Origin: Thermoplasmata archaeon
GTDB lineage: Archaea > Thermoplasmatota > Thermoplasmata > RBG-16-68-12
Assembly: GCA_013329855.1 (NCBI GenBank)
Contig: DUJI01000136.1
Coordinates: 1-18,172, forward strand
Direction: 5' to 3'
DNA length: 18,172 bases
In this document: positions 3,449-11,867 of the stretch, in pieces
How the letters are laid out: every line of letters begins with the position of its first letter
Numbering within the stretch: position 1 is the first letter of the stretch
Translations under genes and position numbers: made by a program
Notes under the pieces: generated by a model
Databases searched by the model: none
What the model was told of the DNA's origin: nothing
What the model saw: the letters and a program-made list of their open reading frames with translations, nothing else

Positions 3449-4105
3449 TCACGGCGGCGGGGGCGGCGGCGGAGGCGGTGGGGGCCCCCGGGCCTGTGCT
3501 TCCGCCATGGCCTTCTGCTCCTCGCGGATCCGGCGCTTGCGGTTGATTGCCTGGGTCTGCAGGATGGCGCCGAGGACGAACGCCCCGAGCCCGGCCACCG
3601 CGGCGAGGAGGGTGCCCAGGTTCAGGATGTACAGCCCCGCGGCGATGAGCAGGCCGCCGATGGCCGCGGTGATGATCCCGATCAGGTCGTCGATGAAGTA
3701 GTACGAGATGCCGAACACGATCACGACGACCAGGAGCGCGGCGATCAGCGGCGGGTCCAGCGCGTAGTTCTTCGTGTCGATGTACGCCTTCCCGTGGAGG
3801 AGGGAGTAGACCAGCGCGCCCGCGAGCAGGCCGACAAGGAACGCGAGGGCGACCTTGACGAGCTTGGAGAACAGGATGCTCCCGATGATGGCGCCCACGA
3901 CGGCGAGGACCAGGCCCGCGATGTCGCCTCCGAGGGGCACGCCGAAGAGATAGCCCACCGCGCTCCCCAGGAGGGCGCCGATCATGGACATCACGGCGGC
4001 CCAGATCCCGTGGCCCCAGAAGGCCAGGAGGAGCCCCGTGACGACGAGGACGCCCCCGATGAGGAGGGCCACGTCGGAGCTGATGTTGGGTATCGTGACG
4101 GCCAT
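3449..4105 (-). CDS. DUF4203/TMEM198-like membrane protein with polyproline tail
   Basis: 218 residues from ATG 4105. About seven hydrophobic helices, many with small-residue repeats (GALLGSAVGYLFGVPLGG, GLVLAVVGAIIGSILF, FLVGLLAGALVY), resemble the DUF4203/TMEM198 family of multi-pass membrane proteins. A charged cytoplasmic-like tail (INRKRRIREEQKAMAEAQ) is followed by eleven consecutive prolines up to the stop, encoded by 3452-3484. A second ATG at 4117 is in frame, but the TATA box at 4128-4135 predicts transcription starting near 4106, so ATG 4105 on a leaderless mRNA fits best. The SRPBCC gene follows after 1 nt. The role is unknown. The proline run should need aIF5A for efficient translation. 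Confidence 0.7.
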   Translation of the reverse strand: MAVTIPNISSDVALLIGGVLVVTGLLLAFWGHGIWAAVMSMIGALLGSAVGYLFGVPLGGDIAGLVLAVVGAIIGSILFSKLVKVALAFLVGLLAGALVYSLLHGKAYIDTKNYALDPPLIAALLVVVIVFGISYYFIDDLIGIITAAIGGLLIAAGLYILNLGTLLAAVAGLGAFVLGAILQTQAINRKRRIREEQKAMAEAQARGPPPPPPPPPPP

Positions 4106-4127
4106 GGCCGTGACCATTCGGGCGGGA

Positions 4128-4135
4128 GTATAAAA
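4128..4135 (-). promoter_or_regulatory. TATA box, DUF4203-like/SRPBCC operon
   Basis: Minus-strand TTTTATAC, a good archaeal TATA box. A start 25-27 nt downstream falls at about 4105, coinciding with ATG 4105 and pointing to a leaderless transcript. Confidence 0.6.
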
Positions 4136-4184
4136 CGGTACCGCGGTGAATCCCAGGCCGCCGCGGCCCGGGCCGACGAATGTC

Positions 4185-5738
4185 CTAGCCGCGGCCGAGG
4201 ACGTCGTCCGCCCGATGCGAGATCTCGGTCATCGTGCCCTCGTCCGCGACCTCGGGCGGCAGGAGGTACTTGCGGACCTTGAGGTCCTCGTACTCGAGGA
4301 CGTCGATGACCGTGGGGATGCGGATGGCGTCCCCGAGGACGGCGACCGTGCGCAGGGGCAGCTTGGCGACGATGTTCACCCACATCCCCTTGTCCGGGAC
4401 GCCCGCCAGAGCCGACTCGACGTCGGAGGGCTCCTTGAGGGACATGACCAGGCGGTTCGCGAGCTGGCTGCGCACCTCGTCGTCGATCCGCGACGGGCGC
4501 TGGTCGATGAGCGCGAGGATCAGATTGAACTTCCGCGTCTCCCGCGCCAGGCGGCTGAAGATGGAGTACTCCGCGATCCGCGGGTCCAGGAACTTGTGGG
4601 CCTCCTCGAGGAACAGGACGAGCCGCGGGAACTTCGCCGTCTGCTCCGTGTACAGCTCGAAGAGGCGGCGCGCGAGGACGTTGGCCACGAACAGGTAGAC
4701 CATCTGGTCCGTCCCGAAGTCCCCGAAGTCCAGGACGACGCTCTTGCCCTCCTTGATGTGGGCGAGCATCTGGCCGAAGGCGTCCCTGGCGCCCTTCTTG
4801 ATGAACGGGAGCCTCTGGAACCGCCCCATCCGCCGCTGGAGGGCCTGGAGGACCATCAGGTGGAGCTGGCCGCCCTCCACCTCGGCCTCGCTCGCCTGCT
4901 TGTCGCGGATCGCGGACACCAGGTCCACGTCCCGCGGCTTCGTCCGGTAGATCTGGTAGATGTGGTCGATCATGGGCGGCGTGAGATCCTGGAACGCGAT
5001 GATCAGGTCCTCCGGCGTAATCTGGTCCGGGTCCAGGACGAACGGTTTCGCCTCCGTGTTCTTGGGGTCCAGGGAGAACGTCTCCACCTTGTGCGGGAAG
5101 AAGTACTTCAGCCCCTCCGTGCCGTCCGTCTTGCTGTAGATCCCGTACTCGCCGTGCATGTCGAAGATGAGGACGGAGCCCGCGTCCTTGGCCAGGATGG
5201 CCGTGCAGATGAGCTTGTTCAGGATGGACTTGCCCGTGCCCGTGCGGCCGAAGATGGCGAAGGGTTTCTCCACGAGCTTCTCCATGTCCACGTGGACGTA
5301 GAACGGCTCCACGCCCGTGATCGTCCCGAGCGGAGCGGACTTCTCCGTGGGCTCGTAGATCCGCTCCACGTCCGCCTTGGTCGCGTGGCGGCACTCGGAG
5401 AAGTAGGGCGGGATGGTCTGCGGCTCGCTCAGGGCCCGCGTCTCCTTGTCCACGAGCTGGATCATCCGCAGCTTGGCCTTGGAGTAGAAGATGGGGCCGC
5501 CGTACCCCTCGTGGGTCTCCGGCCGCGGGACGACGATGTCGCTGATGGACGACCCCGCGAGCTGGTCCGCGATGTCGCTGGGCTCGTTCAGGACGTCCTC
5601 CACGAGACAGTAGAAGTCGTACCGCGCGCCCTGGACGATGACCGGGTAGGCGATCCGAAGCTCCTCGGGGTTGTTCAGTTGGAGCTTGGCCACGAGGCCG
5701 TCGATCACGCTCGCGGCGACGATCTCCCCGATCTTCAT
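4185..5738 (-). CDS. herA: HerA DNA translocase/helicase
   Basis: 517 residues, the usual length of archaeal HerA. An N-terminal HAS-barrel region (about 1-135) precedes the FtsK-HerA ATPase core: Walker A GRTGTGKS (164-171), the strand VLIFDMHGEY (189-198) characteristic of HerA, then LVLFLEEAHKF as Walker B with catalytic glutamate, and LALIDQRPSRIDDEV as the sensor and arginine-bearing block. HerA forms a hexameric ring that pumps duplex DNA and, with the NurA nuclease, resects double-strand breaks opened by Mre11-Rad50. The ATG overlaps the nurA stop by 4 nt (ATGA, 5735-5738), as expected for partners made together. No anomaly was seen in the motifs. Confidence 0.96.
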   Translation of the reverse strand: MKIGEIVAASVIDGLVAKLQLNNPEELRIAYPVIVQGARYDFYCLVEDVLNEPSDIADQLAGSSISDIVVPRPETHEGYGGPIFYSKAKLRMIQLVDKETRALSEPQTIPPYFSECRHATKADVERIYEPTEKSAPLGTITGVEPFYVHVDMEKLVEKPFAIFGRTGTGKSILNKLICTAILAKDAGSVLIFDMHGEYGIYSKTDGTEGLKYFFPHKVETFSLDPKNTEAKPFVLDPDQITPEDLIIAFQDLTPPMIDHIYQIYRTKPRDVDLVSAIRDKQASEAEVEGGQLHLMVLQALQRRMGRFQRLPFIKKGARDAFGQMLAHIKEGKSVVLDFGDFGTDQMVYLFVANVLARRLFELYTEQTAKFPRLVLFLEEAHKFLDPRIAEYSIFSRLARETRKFNLILALIDQRPSRIDDEVRSQLANRLVMSLKEPSDVESALAGVPDKGMWVNIVAKLPLRTVAVLGDAIRIPTVIDVLEYEDLKVRKYLLPPEVADEGTMTEISHRADDVLGRG

Positions 5739-6766
5739 CGCAGGTCCCTCGCCACCTTGTCCAGGTACTCGTGGAACGCGGACCGTTTGCGGCCTTCGAC
5801 CTCCGTGAGGCCATCGAGGACCGTGCGCACGTCGATGCCCATGCGGAGCGCGGCCCGCATGACCGTCTCCTGGTAGATCGGCTTGAGCTGGCGCACGGTC
5901 ACCGCCATCCGGTGCGCCTCAATCAGCGGCCAGGGATATCCGACGGACACGAGGCTCTTCGCGTAGGGCGCAAGCTGCCCGAACACGTACTCGGGCTCGT
6001 CGCGGAACGTCCCCACGTCCACCCGGAACCACTTCCGCCCCTGGGGATGCAGGCGCCCGTAATAGATGTCGCCGTGGAGGAGGCCCTCCCGCGCGGCCTC
6101 GGACTCCTTGGGCGCCCGGACGAACGCGGTCGCGTCCTGCGGGAGCTCGGCCTGGCACCGGGCCAGGAAGTCCTCGTCCGTCAGGACCTGGCCGAACGTG
6201 TGGAGCTGGCTGTCCTTGGAGATGCCGACGAGGATGTGCTCGCGCTTCTCGCACACCTCGACGAGGCGCTTCATGAACGTGAACTGCTTGGGGAACTCGG
6301 ACAGGGTGCCGTCCATGGCCACGATGGCGCCCTCGCAGTCGTCCGCGAAGTTGATCGCGAGCTGTCCCTCGATGAGCCGCCGGTACTCGTTGACCATGTC
6401 GCGAGGCTGGTTCTCGTTCGCGCCCCGCGTGAATTCGAAGAGCGCCCGGTGCAGCTCGTCCTGCTTCTCGACGAACTCCGCGAAGGTCGAGAGGCCGAGC
6501 ATCCGCTGCATCAGGCGGACGTCCAGTCGCCGGAACTTCGTCCCATCGAAGTTGTACCGCAGGAGGCCCACGGAGATCAGGGCGAGCCACCAGCTCGAGA
6601 GGTTGAGGAGGAAGGCGTACGAGCCGTCCACGGCGACCATGTCTCGCGGCGGGTCCGCGGCGCGGAAGAGACGGAACTCGGGCACGGCCTCGGGCGGGAT
6701 GGGGAGATTCCGCTGGTTGCGGACGAGGAGCTCGAGCTCCTTTCGCATATCGTCCACGTAGCTCAT
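5735..6766 (-). CDS. nurA: NurA 5'-to-3' nuclease
   Basis: 343 residues from ATG 6766. NurA is the dimeric nuclease that docks on the HerA ring and degrades the 5' strand at DNA ends. Diagnostic motifs are present: MVAVDGSY (43-50, metal-binding D47), AIVAMDGTLS (147-156, D152), GISKDS (181-186) and a late EAHRMAV. A longer form from GTG 6811 is in frame, but that codon overlaps the TATA-like CTTTAAG at 6811-6817, so ATG 6766 is preferred. The herA ATG overlaps its stop by 4 nt. In many archaea herA, mre11, rad50 and nurA form one cluster; here a plus-strand cassette separates nurA-herA from mre11-rad50. Confidence 0.95.
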   Translation of the reverse strand: MSYVDDMRKELELLVRNQRNLPIPPEAVPEFRLFRAADPPRDMVAVDGSYAFLLNLSSWWLALISVGLLRYNFDGTKFRRLDVRLMQRMLGLSTFAEFVEKQDELHRALFEFTRGANENQPRDMVNEYRRLIEGQLAINFADDCEGAIVAMDGTLSEFPKQFTFMKRLVEVCEKREHILVGISKDSQLHTFGQVLTDEDFLARCQAELPQDATAFVRAPKESEAAREGLLHGDIYYGRLHPQGRKWFRVDVGTFRDEPEYVFGQLAPYAKSLVSVGYPWPLIEAHRMAVTVRQLKPIYQETVMRAALRMGIDVRTVLDGLTEVEGRKRSAFHEYLDKVARDLR

Positions 6767-6810
6767 CGTTCGACCCGCCCCAAAGCGGTCGTACGGATTG
6801 CCTAGGTTCA

Positions 6811-6817
6811 CTTAAAG
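6811..6817 (-). promoter_or_regulatory. TATA-like box of nurA-herA
   Basis: Minus-strand CTTTAAG about 45 nt before ATG 6766, predicting a leader of roughly 20-25 nt. It is back to back with the tetR promoter in the 218-nt divergent gap 6767-6984, which shows no other gene. Confidence 0.45.
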
Positions 6818-6938
6818 CAAAGGGGCGGAGAGCCGAAACGAGGACTCGCGCAAGCCGTATTGTCTGACTCCTGCGCACGCTAGGCTCGTCCCCGCAGGGA
6901 TCGCGTCCCCTTGCACGGGCCGCTCTCGATTGCCCCAG

Positions 6939-6945
6939 ATTTAAG
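6939..6945 (+). promoter_or_regulatory. TATA-like box of the tetR-methyltransferase-HgcAB-like operon
   Basis: ATTTAAG on the plus strand, about 40 nt before ATG 6985. Predicted transcription start near 6966-6968 leaves a leader of about 18 nt containing GCGGGGA. The palindrome at 6950-6959 lies between box and start. Confidence 0.5.
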
Positions 6946-6949
6946 TGGG

Positions 6950-6959
6950 TGACCGGTCA
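6950..6959. promoter_or_regulatory. Candidate TetR operator palindrome
   Basis: TGACCGGTCA is a perfect 10-bp palindrome placed 5 nt after the TATA-like box and before the predicted transcription start of a gene that encodes a TetR-family protein. TetR-family operators are commonly of the TGACC...GGTCA type, and a repressor bound here would block initiation. It is inferred from position and symmetry only; I did not notice a second copy in the window. Confidence 0.45.
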
Positions 6960-6984
6960 TTCATATTGGCAGCGGGGATGGCGC

Positions 6985-7623
6985 ATGGTACGGATTTCGG
7001 CGGCGGCGAAGGACGCGGTGAGGCAGCGGCTCCTCGAGGCAGCTGCCGCGCAGTTCGCCCACCAGGGGTTCGACGCGACGAACATCGATGACATCGCGGT
7101 CGCCGCGGGCGTCGCCAAGGGGACGATTTACAACTACTTCGAGAGCAAGGAGGACCTGTTCGGCGGAGTCCTTGCGGAGGGGGCGCTGAGGACGGTCCAT
7201 CGGTACTCCTCTCTCCCCCACGGTACGTCGACGCGAAGCGCCCTGAGGGCGCTCGCAGCCGCGGACGTGACCGTCCTCCAGGAAGAGGAGGCGTTCATGA
7301 AGGTCCTCGTGGCGGAGGCGATGACGCCCCGGAGCCGCAACTACTCCCTCATCCTCGGACGCCTTTCCCCCTTCCTGGCCGCGGTGGCGGAGATCCTCGA
7401 ATCCGGGGTCCGCACGGGTGACATCCGCCGCGACCGGCCTGTCCCCCAACTGGTTCTCTTCTTCGTCGGCATCCTCGCCCTCCTGTACATTCAGCACTGG
7501 CAGTCCGACGGAAGCTGGCCCAGGATGGAGGAGATTCCGGACCTCGCGGTGGACACTTTCCTCGACGGAGCCCGAGAGCGAGGCCGGGAGGCGCGGCGGC
7601 ATTCGAAGGCGGTGAGACGTTGA
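6985..7623 (+). CDS. TetR-family transcriptional regulator
   Basis: 212 residues from ATG 6985; a GTG at 6949 is in frame but lies ahead of the predicted transcription start. The N-terminal DNA-binding domain is classic: VRQRLLEAAAAQFAHQGFD (helix 1), TNIDDIAVAAGVAKGTIYNYF (helix-turn-helix, about 32-52) and ESKEDLFGGVL (helix 4). The C-terminal ligand-binding half is helical, ending in a very basic tail. It is the first gene of an operon: the methyltransferase starts with TTG inside its stop codon (TTGA, 7620-7623). A palindrome beside the promoter suggests autorepression. The ligand is unknown; a substrate or product of the downstream corrinoid system, or a toxic compound it handles, is a reasonable guess. 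Confidence 0.93.
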   Translation: MVRISAAAKDAVRQRLLEAAAAQFAHQGFDATNIDDIAVAAGVAKGTIYNYFESKEDLFGGVLAEGALRTVHRYSSLPHGTSTRSALRALAAADVTVLQEEEAFMKVLVAEAMTPRSRNYSLILGRLSPFLAAVAEILESGVRTGDIRRDRPVPQLVLFFVGILALLYIQHWQSDGSWPRMEEIPDLAVDTFLDGARERGREARRHSKAVRR

Positions 7624-8288
7624 GCACCTTCGCCTACATGAGGGTCCTGGAATCCGCGCCCGACCGGTACGACCGGGGCATCCGCATCCTCTCGCGCGGA
7701 CGGATCGACGAGGTATACTCGAGGATCGCCGACCTGGTCGCCGCGCCCGGGCGTCGGGTCCTCGACATCGGCTGCGGCACGGGTGGGGTGTCGATCGCGT
7801 GTGCCGCTCGGGGCGCCGACGTGGTCGGAATTGACCGGAGTCCGGGCATGCTGGAGGTGGCGAAGGCCAAGGCGAAACGCCCTCTCCCCGGACGCGTGGA
7901 ATGGCTGGAACTGGGGGCTGCCGAGGTGGGAGACCGGTTGGCCGAAGGTTCTCTCGACGCGGCGGTGGCCTGCCTGAGCTTCAGCGAGTTCTCCGAGGAG
8001 GAGCAAGCCTACGTACTCGAGGTCGTCCGGAGTCGCCTTCGCCCGGGCGGCGTCCTTGTCATCGCCGACGAGGTTGTCCCGCGGCCCCGGCTCCGCCGGA
8101 TCGCGTACCGCCTCCGGCGCGCCCTGGTCGCGGCTATCACCTACGTCCTGACCCAGGCGCGGACCCGCCCTCTGAAGGATCCGACGTCTCTCGTCGCGCG
8201 AGCCGGGTTCGTGGACATCGAATCCGTGCGGCTGTGGTCGGGGAGCTTCGTCATCCTGCGCGCCCTTCGTGGGAGGGATGACGGATGA
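7620..8288 (+). CDS. Class I SAM methyltransferase, CpaM-like (corrinoid-protein-associated)
   Basis: 222 residues from TTG 7620, overlapping the tetR stop by 4 nt. A Rossmann methyltransferase core is clear: motif I VLDIGCGTG (47-55), motif II VVGIDRSPGML (68-78) and RLRPGGVLVIADEV as the post-IV strand. The N-terminus, MRVLESAPDRYDRGIRIL followed by GRIDEVY, matches what I recall of a family named CpaM, found next to HgcA-related corrinoid proteins; that recollection could not be checked here. The next gene, an HgcA/HgcB-like fusion, begins with ATG 4 nt inside this stop (ATGA, 8285-8288), so stoichiometric expression and joint action are likely. It may methylate the corrinoid or a downstream acceptor; which one cannot be told from sequence. 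The middle of the C-terminal part (ALVAAITYVL) is hydrophobic and might touch the membrane partner. Confidence 0.85.
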   Translation: MSTFAYMRVLESAPDRYDRGIRILSRGRIDEVYSRIADLVAAPGRRVLDIGCGTGGVSIACAARGADVVGIDRSPGMLEVAKAKAKRPLPGRVEWLELGAAEVGDRLAEGSLDAAVACLSFSEFSEEEQAYVLEVVRSRLRPGGVLVIADEVVPRPRLRRIAYRLRRALVAAITYVLTQARTRPLKDPTSLVARAGFVDIESVRLWSGSFVILRALRGRDDG

Positions 8289-9421
8289 CCGTCCGCGAGG
8301 GTCTGAACCGCGCGTTCGACCTGTTCCTCCGGATGCTCCCTCATGCCGGCCCGACCGGGCTCATCGCGGTCGGCTCTCCGGGCCGGGGCTCGCCCGTCCT
8401 CGTCACAGGCAACTACACCCTCACGCTACGGCGGATGCGGCAGGCGCTCGCGGGGCGGGACGCCTGGATTCTCTCCGCGGACAGCAAGGGGATCAACGTC
8501 TGGTGCGCGGCGACGGGGGGTCACCTGACCCACCACGACGTCATCTCCGTGATCCGGACGTCTCACCTGGACGCCCGCGTCGACCATCGGGAGCTCATCC
8601 TGCCGCAGCTCGCAGCGACGGGCGTCGAGGGCAAGAAGATCACCGAGGCGACGGGCTGGTCCGCGAAGTGGGGACCCGTCCGCCTGGAGGATCTCCCTGC
8701 GTTCCTCGACCGGGGGCAGCGGGTGACCCGCGAGCAGCGGCGGGTCCCCTTCCCGCTCCGGGACCGCATGGAGATGGCCCTCATGTGGGGGTTCCCGATG
8801 CTCCTCGTCGGGGTTCCTCTCTTTGTCCTGCTCGGAGGCCCGGCCGTCGGTCTCGCGGTCGGCCTCGCGATCGGTGCCATGGTGACGAGTCTCTTCGCCG
8901 CCCTCCCGCGGGTGAAGGTCATCGGGCGCGTCCGCTGGGCAACCTTCGCCCTGTGGGCCCTAGGCGGGTTCGGACTCGGCGCCGGAGTCCTGTGGGCCTT
9001 GGGGAGCGCCATGGCGGGCAGCTTGTCCCTCGTTGGTCTGGGATCCGCGATTGCGATGGCCATCCTGGGCGTCGACCTCGCGGGGACGACGCCGTGGTAC
9101 GGCAGCTACATCAACACGTTCCGGAACGAGGCCCGCATCGAACTCGTGGAGGAACGCTGCACGGGCTCCGCGACATGCGTGCTCGTGTGTCCACGGGATG
9201 TGCTCCTGATGAACGGGCCTGCGCGGAAGGTCGACATCGTGCGGCCCGCCGACTGCATCCAATGCGGGGCGTGCATCGTCCAGTGTCCGCAGGACGCGTT
9301 GCGATTCCGGTACCAGGACGACCGCGTCGTGGAGGCGGCGACGATCCGGAGCACGAGGATGAACCTGCTCGGCCGGCGCACGGTCCCGGTCGGCGACCAT
9401 CGGGTCCAGGGCCGCCCGTGA
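8285..9421 (+). CDS. HgcA-like corrinoid protein fused to HgcB-like ferredoxin
   Basis: 378 residues in three parts. Residues 1-145 match the HgcA/CdhD-type corrinoid-binding domain: SPVLVTGNYTLTLRRMR, DAWILSADSKGINVWCAATGG (59-79, cap-helix Cys74), LILPQLAATGV and WGPVRLEDLPAFL. Residues 154-257 form four hydrophobic helices, as in HgcA. Residues 278-335 are a two-cluster ferredoxin domain like HgcB, with C282, C288, C292, C314, C317, C320 and C324. Oddities: the HgcA motif usually reads NVWCAAGKG; the second cysteine of the first cluster is Ser285 (CTGSATC); and there is no C-terminal cysteine pair, which true HgcB has for Hg(II). HgcA moves a methyl group from corrinoid to mercury while HgcB reduces the corrinoid. 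Here both would sit in one membrane protein, but the acceptor is probably not mercury. Fused HgcAB-like proteins are known from Thermococci. Confidence 0.88.
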   Translation: MTVREGLNRAFDLFLRMLPHAGPTGLIAVGSPGRGSPVLVTGNYTLTLRRMRQALAGRDAWILSADSKGINVWCAATGGHLTHHDVISVIRTSHLDARVDHRELILPQLAATGVEGKKITEATGWSAKWGPVRLEDLPAFLDRGQRVTREQRRVPFPLRDRMEMALMWGFPMLLVGVPLFVLLGGPAVGLAVGLAIGAMVTSLFAALPRVKVIGRVRWATFALWALGGFGLGAGVLWALGSAMAGSLSLVGLGSAIAMAILGVDLAGTTPWYGSYINTFRNEARIELVEERCTGSATCVLVCPRDVLLMNGPARKVDIVRPADCIQCGACIVQCPQDALRFRYQDDRVVEAATIRSTRMNLLGRRTVPVGDHRVQGRP

Positions 9422-9461
9422 GCGTCTCCCCCGCACGTCCGGGGTACCCTGCGTCCTCGCC

Positions 9462-11867
9462 TCAGGCGAGGACCTCGACCCGTGACTCCTGGTTCGGGGT
9501 CATCGTCACCAGGAGGCGACTCGGGAAGCGATCCGCGACCTCGGCCAGGTGCGTGATCAGGATGACCTTCTCGAAGAACTCCCCCATGCGGAAGAGCTTC
9601 TGCACGAAAAGCCCTCGAGAGACCTCCGTGTCCAGGGACCCGAGGTCGCCTTCGTCGATGAACAGGGTCTTCATGCGGCCGAAGGTCCGCCCCATCTGCG
9701 GAAGGGAAGCGAGCTCCCGCGCGATGGCGAACCGCAGGGCCGCGTTGATCTGTGTCTTCTCGCCCCCGCTGAACTCGCCCACGTCGTGCCAGAGGCTGTC
9801 CACGCCCTGCACCTGGATCCGGATGCCGTGGCCGCGTCCCTCCTCGTACGTCTCCAGCTTGATCCGGCTGAAGCGGCCGTCCGTGAGCTCCGCGAGGTTC
9901 TTGGACGCCTCGATCTCCAGTTCCGGCAGGAGCTGGTCGATCGCGTACATGACGACGCCCCGGTTGTGGAAGACGCGGCTCACAAGGACATCGGCGATCT
10001 CTGCGCGGATCCGGAGTTCATCCCGCTGGCGTTCCGCCTCCTTCAGCTTGGCTGCGTCGCTCTCGAGTGCGGAGACCTGAGCCTGGAGCTGCTTGGCCTG
10101 GCCCTCCAGCGTGTGGAAGGAGCGCCGCTCCCCATCCAGGGCGGCTCGGAGTTCCTCCAGCCCCCGCTTGGCCTCCTGGTACGCCGTCTCCTGGATCTCC
10201 AGACGGCCCGTCTCCTTCTCCAGCGACGCGAGTTCCGACTCCAGGGCCGTGACCTGTCCGTCCAGGTCCGCCAGGAGCGCCGTGGTATCCCCCCGCTCTC
10301 GGATGCGCGCACCGAGCTCGTCCGCTTTCCGGCGCTGGGCCGTCTTGGCCTGGACGCCGCGAGCCACGTCGTCCAGATGCCGCCGGTCTCGTTCCGTGAA
10401 TGGATTCGCATCGAGTTCTCGCAGGGCGACGATCTTCGCGTCATCCAAGGGGCGGAGCGTCTCGTGGCTCTCGTCGGTCTCCCGTTTGAGGTCGCTCCGG
10501 AGTTCCTCGATCTGCTTCTGGAGCTCCGTGAGGACGAAGGAATCCTGGTTGATCGAGCCGACCTTCTCTCGGACGTGGGTCAGGGCCTTCTCCGTGCGGG
10601 TCTGCTCCCCCCGGAGGCTGCTCATGAGATCGGGACGCTCCGCGAGCCATTCCAACTCACGCTCGATTCGGGCGATCCGCTCCTCGAGACGGCCCTCGTC
10701 GCGGAGGAGGTTGAACGCTCCGTCCCGGTCCAGTTGGGTGTCCAAGACGGCGATCTTTCGGTGGACCGCGTCGATCTTGTCCTTGATCAGGTCGCGCCGT
10801 CGCTCGTGGTCCTTCTTGGCCTGGTCGAACAGACGCTCGGCGGATTCGGCGGCGAGCCGCGCTCGCTCGTGCGCCTGCTGGCGGCCCCTCAGGAGTTCCA
10901 GCTCTTCCCGGAGCGGTTCCAAGTCGGCCACGTCCTTCTCGAGACCCTTGCGCTGGTGCTCGAGGTCAGCCGTCTCTTTCCCGCGGTCCCGGGTTTCCTC
11001 GATGCGCCCGTGCAGCTCGCCGAGGCGCTGCCTTCGGTCCTCCAGGGCCGCTCCCGAGCGGACCCATGCCTCGTGGTCCGCCTCCCGGACCCGCAACCCC
11101 TGCTCCGCATCGTGCAGCTTCGATTCGAGGGCCGCGAGTTCGAGGCTCCCCGCGGCCAATCCCTTGCGCGCGGTCTCCAGCTCTGTCCGTGCGGGCGGAA
11201 GCCTCTGAAGGGCTTCCGTGCGCGCGGCGATGTCCGCTTCCTGGGCCCGGCGGTCCGACTGGAGCGACGCCTGCTGGTCCTTGGCCTTCTGGAGGGCCTT
11301 CTCGAACACCTCAAGGCGGAACAGCTTCTGGAACACGGCGAGCCGGTCCGCCCCTCGCGCGGATCCGAGCTCCTTCATCTCCTCCTGCCGCACGAACGTG
11401 GAGTTGCGGAACCCGACGTAGTCGAGGCCGACGACGTCCTGGAGGGTCTGTTCCTTCTCGCGGATCGTTCCCGAGATGGCCTCCCCGTCGCAGCTCAGCT
11501 CGAGGTAGGAGTCCTTCTTCGACGTGAACCCCCGGCGCACCTCCCAGCGGCTGTCCCCCTGGCGGAAGGCCACGCGGACGTAGCCTCCGGGTCGGCAGAC
11601 GTCGGATTGTTTCACGGACTGGATGTCCGTGCGCGTCGTGGAACCGTACAGGGCGAACGTGATCGCGTCCAGGATGGACGACTTGCCGGCCCCGGTCCGG
11701 CCCGTGATGACCGTGAACTTCTCCGGGAAGCGGAGGGGTGGATCTGTCTTCTCCACGTAGCGCATGAAGCCCCGCATCTCGATCTCGTCGAGGACGAACC
11801 CCTCGGCGCCCGCGTTCGGCTCGAAGGAGGGAGCCGCCTCCGCGTCAATCTCCTCGGAGCCTTTCAC
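9462..11867 (-). CDS. rad50: Rad50 ATPase of the Mre11-Rad50 complex, without zinc hook
   Basis: 801 residues from GTG 11867, overlapping the mre11 stop by 4 nt. After a 25-residue N-terminal extension come the Rad50 ATPase motifs: Walker A GRTGAGKS (56-63), the Q-loop region near FVRQEEM, the ABC signature FSGGEK (699-704), Walker B TLFIDEGD (734-741) and switch His773. Between them lies a long heptad-rich coiled coil (about 190-640). Rad50 dimers tether DNA ends and drive Mre11; the coil apex normally carries a CxxC zinc hook. The only cysteines here are C91 and C126, both in the head domain, so no hook exists. The segment ALRELDANPFTERDRRHLDD (481-500) resembles the flank of a hook whose cysteines were replaced. 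The gene converges on the HgcAB-like gene with 40 nt between stops. Confidence 0.95.
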   Translation of the reverse strand: MKGSEEIDAEAAPSFEPNAGAEGFVLDEIEMRGFMRYVEKTDPPLRFPEKFTVITGRTGAGKSSILDAITFALYGSTTRTDIQSVKQSDVCRPGGYVRVAFRQGDSRWEVRRGFTSKKDSYLELSCDGEAISGTIREKEQTLQDVVGLDYVGFRNSTFVRQEEMKELGSARGADRLAVFQKLFRLEVFEKALQKAKDQQASLQSDRRAQEADIAARTEALQRLPPARTELETARKGLAAGSLELAALESKLHDAEQGLRVREADHEAWVRSGAALEDRRQRLGELHGRIEETRDRGKETADLEHQRKGLEKDVADLEPLREELELLRGRQQAHERARLAAESAERLFDQAKKDHERRRDLIKDKIDAVHRKIAVLDTQLDRDGAFNLLRDEGRLEERIARIERELEWLAERPDLMSSLRGEQTRTEKALTHVREKVGSINQDSFVLTELQKQIEELRSDLKRETDESHETLRPLDDAKIVALRELDANPFTERDRRHLDDVARGVQAKTAQRRKADELGARIRERGDTTALLADLDGQVTALESELASLEKETGRLEIQETAYQEAKRGLEELRAALDGERRSFHTLEGQAKQLQAQVSALESDAAKLKEAERQRDELRIRAEIADVLVSRVFHNRGVVMYAIDQLLPELEIEASKNLAELTDGRFSRIKLETYEEGRGHGIRIQVQGVDSLWHDVGEFSGGEKTQINAALRFAIARELASLPQMGRTFGRMKTLFIDEGDLGSLDTEVSRGLFVQKLFRMGEFFEKVILITHLAEVADRFPSRLLVTMTPNQESRVEVLA

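Follow-up and report, generated by a model that had tools for sequence, protein, structure and literature searches.

The contig DUJI01000136.1 of a Thermoplasmata archaeon (GenBank assembly GCA_013329855.1), analyzed over its whole length of 18,172 nt and referred to below as the window, carries a compact cassette of three plus-strand genes encoding a TetR-family regulator, the methyltransferase CpaM and an HgcAB-like corrinoid protein in which HgcA- and HgcB-like parts are fused. The initial annotation had described this layout, including overlaps of 4 nt at both joints, and we see it again. The TetR gene has the expected N-terminal helix-turn-helix (TetR_N). The cassette contains the following features (loci and genomes used for comparison carry L and G numbers throughout):

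6985..7623, plus strand: TetR-family regulator (PF00440, 67.4 bits, cut-off 24; putative start)
7620..8288, plus strand: CpaM, a class I S-adenosylmethionine (SAM)-dependent methyltransferase (NF043040, 265.5 bits, cut-off 180)
8285..9421, plus strand: HgcAB-like fusion with a corrinoid domain, four predicted membrane helices and a ferredoxin (NF043039, 391.3 bits, cut-off 285; AlphaFold2 model)
8495..8512, plus strand: NVWCAA cap-helix motif, residues 71–76 of the fusion (alignment A4)
9131..9313, plus strand: ferredoxin part, residues 283–343 of the fusion (cysteine motifs, AlphaFold2 model)

The fusion resembles the mercury-methylating proteins HgcA and HgcB and differs from them at positions that matter for mercury. 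Its match to NF043039 (HgcAB_like) spans model positions 3–350, whereas it scores 171.1 bits against the HgcA model NF040863 (curated cut-off 275) and 48.3 bits against the HgcB model NF040864 (curated cut-off 99), so that these models place it as a relative of the mercury pair, outside both families. The assignment of its first domain to the PF03599/HgcA type holds, with a PF03599 match of 47.9 bits (cut-off 24.8) and an agreeing fold. Like HgcA and HgcB, it combines a corrinoid domain bearing the NVWCAA cap helix with a membrane domain and a dicluster-type ferredoxin; the two folds and the membrane helices are predicted from the model. Residues N71, V72, W73, C74 and A75 are invariant across the 34 sequences of alignment A4, and Cys74 is likely the lower cobalt ligand. 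The large subunit of CFeSP/CdhE, in contrast, has no cysteine in the cap region according to PMC7305189, and the window protein further differs from it in having membrane helices and a SAM enzyme as partner. Unlike HgcA and HgcB, the window protein is fused and paired with CpaM, and it reads NVWCAATGG, with TGG where HgcA has GKG, so the HgcA-type lysine is missing. Its first ferredoxin motif has three cysteines (serine at the second position) and its second has four; two complete CxxCxxCxxxCP motifs of the HgcB type are therefore not present in the fusion. The three-cysteine form is common to 27/50 parsed CpaM-adjacent relatives. No cysteine lies beyond residue 334, so that the fusion has neither a Cys73-like nor a C-terminal HgcB cysteine.

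These features make it very improbable that the cassette encodes a single-gene version of the mercury-methylating HgcAB pair. Although the cap-helix cysteine and overall fold are those of HgcA, the scores fall below both curated cut-offs, the lysine of NVWCAAGK is missing, and published fused HgcAB proteins of two organisms were inactive on mercury. HgcB needs Cys73 together with one or more C-terminal cysteines to methylate mercury (PMC7305189), and because no cysteine follows the second cluster motif in the fusion, methylation of mercury in the known way is unlikely. Counts of mercury methylators that include fused HgcAB genes should be read with caution, as the window protein is without residues known to be needed.

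The C-terminal cysteines vary among relatives. Asgard fusions at L009, L010, L170 and L185 end in KRDCC or REYCC, and C-terminal cysteine pairs come and go inside the window protein's own branch. The HgcB frames of L037, L044, L045, L055 and L063 stop right after PGVG or a similar motif, where HgcB relatives carry a cysteine. These stops are possible selenocysteine codons, and published notes have proposed some HgcB as selenoproteins.

CpaM is a UbiE-like SAM enzyme with its own SAM site. Its gene overlaps the HgcAB-like gene and thus adjoins a corrinoid-protein gene, as NF043040 expects. It shares a class I SAM fold and weak similarity with the arsenic methyltransferase ArsM but scores far under the three ArsM model cut-offs examined. 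ArsM binds As(III) through conserved cysteines, whereas no cysteine is invariant or nearly invariant among the 38 CpaM sequences of alignment A2, which would speak against As(III) binding in the ArsM manner and makes the corrinoid protein the likelier metal-facing part. The structural neighbors of CpaM include Coq5, UbiG and phospholipid or phosphoethanolamine N-methyltransferases. This neighborhood would suit a substrate that is a membrane lipid, a quinone or another organic molecule needing corrinoid chemistry, and not a metal. TetR regulators often respond to organic ligands, so the regulator in the window would also fit such a substrate, as would the PEMT-type genes that lie near cpaM in L025, L012, L168 and L209. 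We nonetheless consider an organic substrate improbable, given that the cap-helix cysteine is common to the metal-methylating HgcA and that ArsR, acr3-type and MerB-like genes stand beside relatives of the cassette (below).

CpaM and HgcA-type corrinoid proteins without the lysine are nearly always found together. With the HgcAB-like protein as query, scanning a genome collection gave 500 relatives, of which the best 80 were kept; 30 of these fall in the class without GK (L076, which reads GAG, was counted with the HgcA type). CpaM lies directly upstream or in the same open reading frame (ORF) in 28/30 of these loci. In the remaining two, L056 is truncated where its contig stops, though its genome does hold CpaM, in a 630-residue frame, and the genome of L014 shows none. 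At the genome level CpaM is present in 29/30, and over cut-off in 28. CpaM stands beside none of the other 50 loci, which are of the HgcA GK type; two of these have weak matches (24.5 and 30.7 bits) elsewhere on the locus. Among 28 genomes chosen by hand from those 50, CpaM passes the cut-off only in G1300, as a 532-residue CpaM-HgcA chain (L218) on a contig other than that of its HgcA locus; a second match there (110 bits) and matches in three other genomes (94–100 bits) are far below the 180-bit cut-off.

A search was also begun from CpaM. An HgcA-type corrinoid ORF is adjacent or fused in 63/66 loci, where 11 of the 66 repeat loci of the HgcAB-like scan, one repeats L082, one is the window itself, and L186 is counted although only the first 47 residues show at a contig end. 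Two of the exceptions (L137 and L183) stop at contig ends and the third (L167) shows a ferredoxin piece only. Over 49 loci, pairwise distances in CpaM track those in its partner (correlation 0.90; maximum of 2000 shuffles, 0.166), and 23/49 joints between cpaM and its partner overlap by 1–4 nt with script-chosen starts. In the window's phylum, CpaM occurs in 2/340 genomes, and the same two are the sole genomes passing HgcAB_like among the 120 relatives tested. In the phylum of L020 (375 genomes), CpaM counted at E up to 1e-35 is found in 10 genomes (9 over cut-off), and HgcAB_like passes its cut-off in the identical 10. A further 15 genomes of that phylum, all without CpaM, have sub-cut-off HgcAB_like matches that cross stops, as separate hgcA and hgcB genes would. 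CpaM is present in 4/231 genomes of the phylum of L049 and in 0/236 of a Halobacteriota-type sample (phylum of L059), a count that says nothing about Methanococcoides. The initial annotation had named two findings that would speak against it, a first domain outside PF03599/HgcA and a mostly partnerless methyltransferase; we found the opposite of each, and surveys started from either protein agree that CpaM is seldom without its corrinoid partner.

Some genomes hold more than one of these loci. G1300, the genome of L079, has a lysine-type HgcA and also the L218 chain, which is followed by a ferredoxin ORF; the two systems can therefore occur in one genome. G442 and G444 each have a second CpaM over cut-off (L220 and L221), where the contig stops on the side on which the partner would lie, and a further CpaM fragment of G444 (L223) precedes an HgcAB-like ORF. 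At L021, a DJ-1/PfpI-family gene (3542-4144) lies between cpaM and the HgcAB-like gene.

Natural gene fusions join the two proteins. Relatives carry either a single CpaM-HgcA-HgcB chain or a CpaM-HgcA chain plus a separate HgcB. One-chain proteins occur at 24/82 loci and make up 115 of the best 120 of 362 database matches, in a search that favors whole chains. The predicted structure of a natural 619-residue chain has a pTM of 0.82; the VIA rows for this model cover the methyltransferase part only, and a Foldseek search placed the HgcAB model at rank 9. These fusions back the earlier proposal that CpaM and the corrinoid protein work as one shared machine, and we infer that the two separate window proteins form a complex.

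We therefore propose, tentatively and at close to even chances, that the pair moves a methyl group from SAM to the vitamin-B12-type corrinoid and on to a soft, probably toxic metal(loid). CpaM would bind SAM and methylate the reduced Co(I) of the HgcA-type corrinoid domain, and at the membrane the methyl-corrinoid would pass its methyl group to a thiol-bound soft metal(loid). The cobalt would then be brought back to Co(I) by the ferredoxin part, and in the window the TetR regulator would sense the compound or its effects and switch the pair on. The direction of methyl transfer, corrinoid binding, the class of substrate and control by TetR are what we infer from family membership, pairing, fusion and gene neighborhood. 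SAM as the donor fits the biochemistry of HgcAB, which takes its methyl group from SAM, the purified pair needing no partner (PMC11588087). The same result would suit a different division of labor, in which CpaM and the corrinoid protein modify one metal(loid) or small molecule in turn, in either order, and the pair adds two methyl groups to it. CpaM's UbiE-like character, its own SAM site and its weak ArsM similarity agree with this. However, gene fusion and short overlaps favor a direct hand-over, and CpaM lacks the nearly invariant cysteine of an ArsM-like As(III) site, so that we regard double methylation as distinctly unlikely. Nothing was found in support of the corrinoid itself as final substrate, which the initial annotation had also considered.

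Metal(loid) genes recur beside relatives of the cassette. ArsR-type regulators lie within 4 kb at 17/82 non-duplicate relative loci (one weak). TetR genes, which the initial annotation had made a fixed part of the methyl-transfer machine, lie upstream at 4/82 besides the window, which does not support TetR as such a fixed part. Both counts are lower bounds, as two probes were used for each and many loci have just 1.5 kb upstream. In the phylum of L015, taken as Asgard from how its members L006, L008-L011, L013, L015, L019 and L026 are named, CpaM is found in 90/225 genomes at E up to 1e-35 (37 over cut-off). Among 20 Asgard loci hand-picked for longer flanks, 14 (L198-L208, L215-L217), which we suspect belong to Lokiarchaeia, share one layout, in which HgcB is a separate protein next to a CpaM-HgcA chain. 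Immediately before the chain, 7/14 have a co-directional acr3-type gene, and 8/14 have a divergent arsR nearby (a ninth is weak); three of the 14 hold <1 kb upstream. The three acr3-type genes scanned against TIGR00832 score 275.6, 275.4 and 283.4 bits (cut-off 282.8). The separate HgcB of these loci has a Cys-rich tail (GCGCLW ... CC or CNC), like mercury HgcB. A second branch (L014, L016, L018, L020, L021, L023 and L027) has an ArsR gene upstream in 7/7 loci, and all seven proteins have Cys-rich tails. An ArsR-like regulator that responds to arsenic also controls hgcAB of P. mercurii, as described in PMC10349881. No arsenic gene lies within the window cassette, and arsenic-resistance genes adjoin relatives only; the metal(loid) reading would thus carry over to the window by analogy.

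One neighborhood bears on the opposite direction, in which the corrinoid would demethylate an organometal or other methylated compound and the methyl group would be disposed of by CpaM. Upstream in L042 lie an ArsR gene and a MerB-domain gene (38.0 bits, cut-off 27; 49.8 bits against SaoL, cut-off 140). L042 is however a single locus, and methyl transfer to S-adenosylhomocysteine is energetically unfavorable, which leaves this direction with little credibility.

Several further genes also recur at these loci. A conserved gene of ~92 codons follows hgcB in 7/14 Asgard chain-type loci (L202 2781-3056), and its L202 copy has no Pfam or NCBIfam match. In L018, L020, L021 and L023, two small conserved genes lie between arsR and cpaM; the product of one is a membrane protein of 161 residues that carries a GCCGSP motif and matches nothing in Pfam or NCBIfam, and that of the other is 166 residues long. 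Genes for Memo and for a radical SAM protein follow the HgcAB-like gene in the Myxococcales locus L003 (9097-11060) and, by BLAST, in L004. A related radical SAM gene adjoins cpaM in L009 (2740-3843) and in further Heimdall loci identified by BLAST (a 7-locus group).

The lysine after the cap helix separates the two kinds of system. A lysine follows NVWCAAG in 67/69 HgcA-type rows without CpaM (the exceptions are L014 and L076) but in 0/66 parsed CpaM-linked rows (64 G, 1 A, 1 R). There are 77 CpaM-linked rows in all, and of the 11 unparsed the six printed read G. Because many were fetched via CpaM and the rows share ancestry, these numbers do not count independent events. The lysine may thus be a defining trait of the HgcA family. 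As the purified mercury pair takes the SAM methyl group without a partner, our guess is that the lysine branch internalized what CpaM does elsewhere. A rapidly built 94-row tree with CdhE as its root places mercury-type HgcA inside the CpaM-linked group; in it two long branches, those of L210 and CdhE, come together. With three long rows removed, the likelihood was better when all CpaM-linked rows (plus L014) were kept as one group (AU P = 0.816), and we accordingly do not claim that CpaM was lost en route to mercury methylation. A wider reading, which we rate as rather unlikely, would make CpaM a dedicated loader of HgcA-type proteins and the first class I SAM:cob(I)alamin methyltransferase. 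CpaM-HgcA-HgcB would then be the general, arsenic-type machine by which Asgard archaea and many bacteria methylate metal(loid)s, and mercury methylators would be its loader-free lysine branch.

The pair of CpaM and HgcAB_like is already curated in NCBIfam and is thus known. The window proteins pass both cut-offs and adjoin as the name of CpaM states, and relative to the curated pair the window adds TetR, a solitary position inside a DNA-repair operon and the three-cysteine first cluster motif. Fused HgcAB has been reported from Thermococci, Atribacteria, Aminicenantes, Chloroflexi, Methanococcoides and Kosmotoga, and serves as root or paralogue group in HgcA trees; CpaM is not mentioned alongside it in the available portions of these two sources (PMC7573106, PMC7438021). 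These proteins share the one-protein layout, and an Atribacteria (L025) and a Chloroflexota (L049) relative have CpaM here. The phrase "corrinoid protein-associated methyltransferase" was not found in the literature searched. The fusions, near-exclusive pairing, Asgard arsenic neighborhood and lysine contrast were absent from the titles and abstract openings searched, although full texts may mention them. The cassette matters in that Asgard relatives of the pair often stand beside arsenic-resistance genes, and the widespread CpaM systems offer a way to test both what the HgcAB fold natively does and why SAM is used to methylate mercury, by asking whether CpaM loads cobalt and whether arsenic is the substrate.

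The cassette lies exactly at the joint between rad50 and nurA, in the opposite direction to both, with these surrounding features:

5735..6766, minus strand: nurA, cassette flank (PF09376, 23.5 bits, cut-off 21; 91.5% identity to G009)
6767..9461, no strand: rad50-nurA interval holding the cassette, missing in two sister species (gene order in G009 and G003)
6809..6817, minus strand: TATA-like box facing nurA, exact CTTTAAGTG (putative role)
6939..6947, plus strand: TATA-like box ATTTAAGTG upstream of the TetR gene (putative promoter)
6950..6959, no strand: perfect palindrome TGACCGGTCA, candidate TetR operator (putative role)
9462..11867, minus strand: rad50, cassette flank (PF13476, 80.0 bits; 79% identity to G009)

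In the sister species G009 and G003, mre11-rad50-nurA-herA is gapless and rad50 and nurA overlap by ATGA, whereas 2695 bp separate the rad50 stop from the nurA ATG in the window. Rad50 scores 112.2 bits against the Rad50 model PRK03918, under its 700-bit cut-off, and its identity to G009 places the contig with this genus. Gene content suggests that the host is archaeal and probably Thermoplasmata-like. The HgcAB_like cut-off is passed by 0/18 same-genus genomes, many of them incomplete, and the nearest tree row to the window protein is from a Myxococcales bacterium (support 100, 62% identical). A foreign base composition was considered and set aside, as the insert hardly differs from its flanks (GC 0.688 vs. 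0.675 and 0.659; GC3 0.84–0.89 vs. 0.88–0.93). The case for transfer therefore comes from gene order and the tree, not from composition.

Allowing <=1 mismatch, the TATA-like CTTTAAGTG has 2 matches in the window against 0.46 expected, and 17/200 shuffles reach 2. The palindrome has its sole match in the window here, yet 0.86 are expected at <=1 mismatch; it is no rarer than chance, and what suggests a role as TetR operator is its position.

Other members of the genus also carry DNA at this joint. L124 (G011, another species) has a cation-diffusion-facilitator-like ORF, recognized by eye, at ~3980-4900, and L126 (G005) has a gap of ~370 bp. The rad50/nurA joint may be a repeated landing site.

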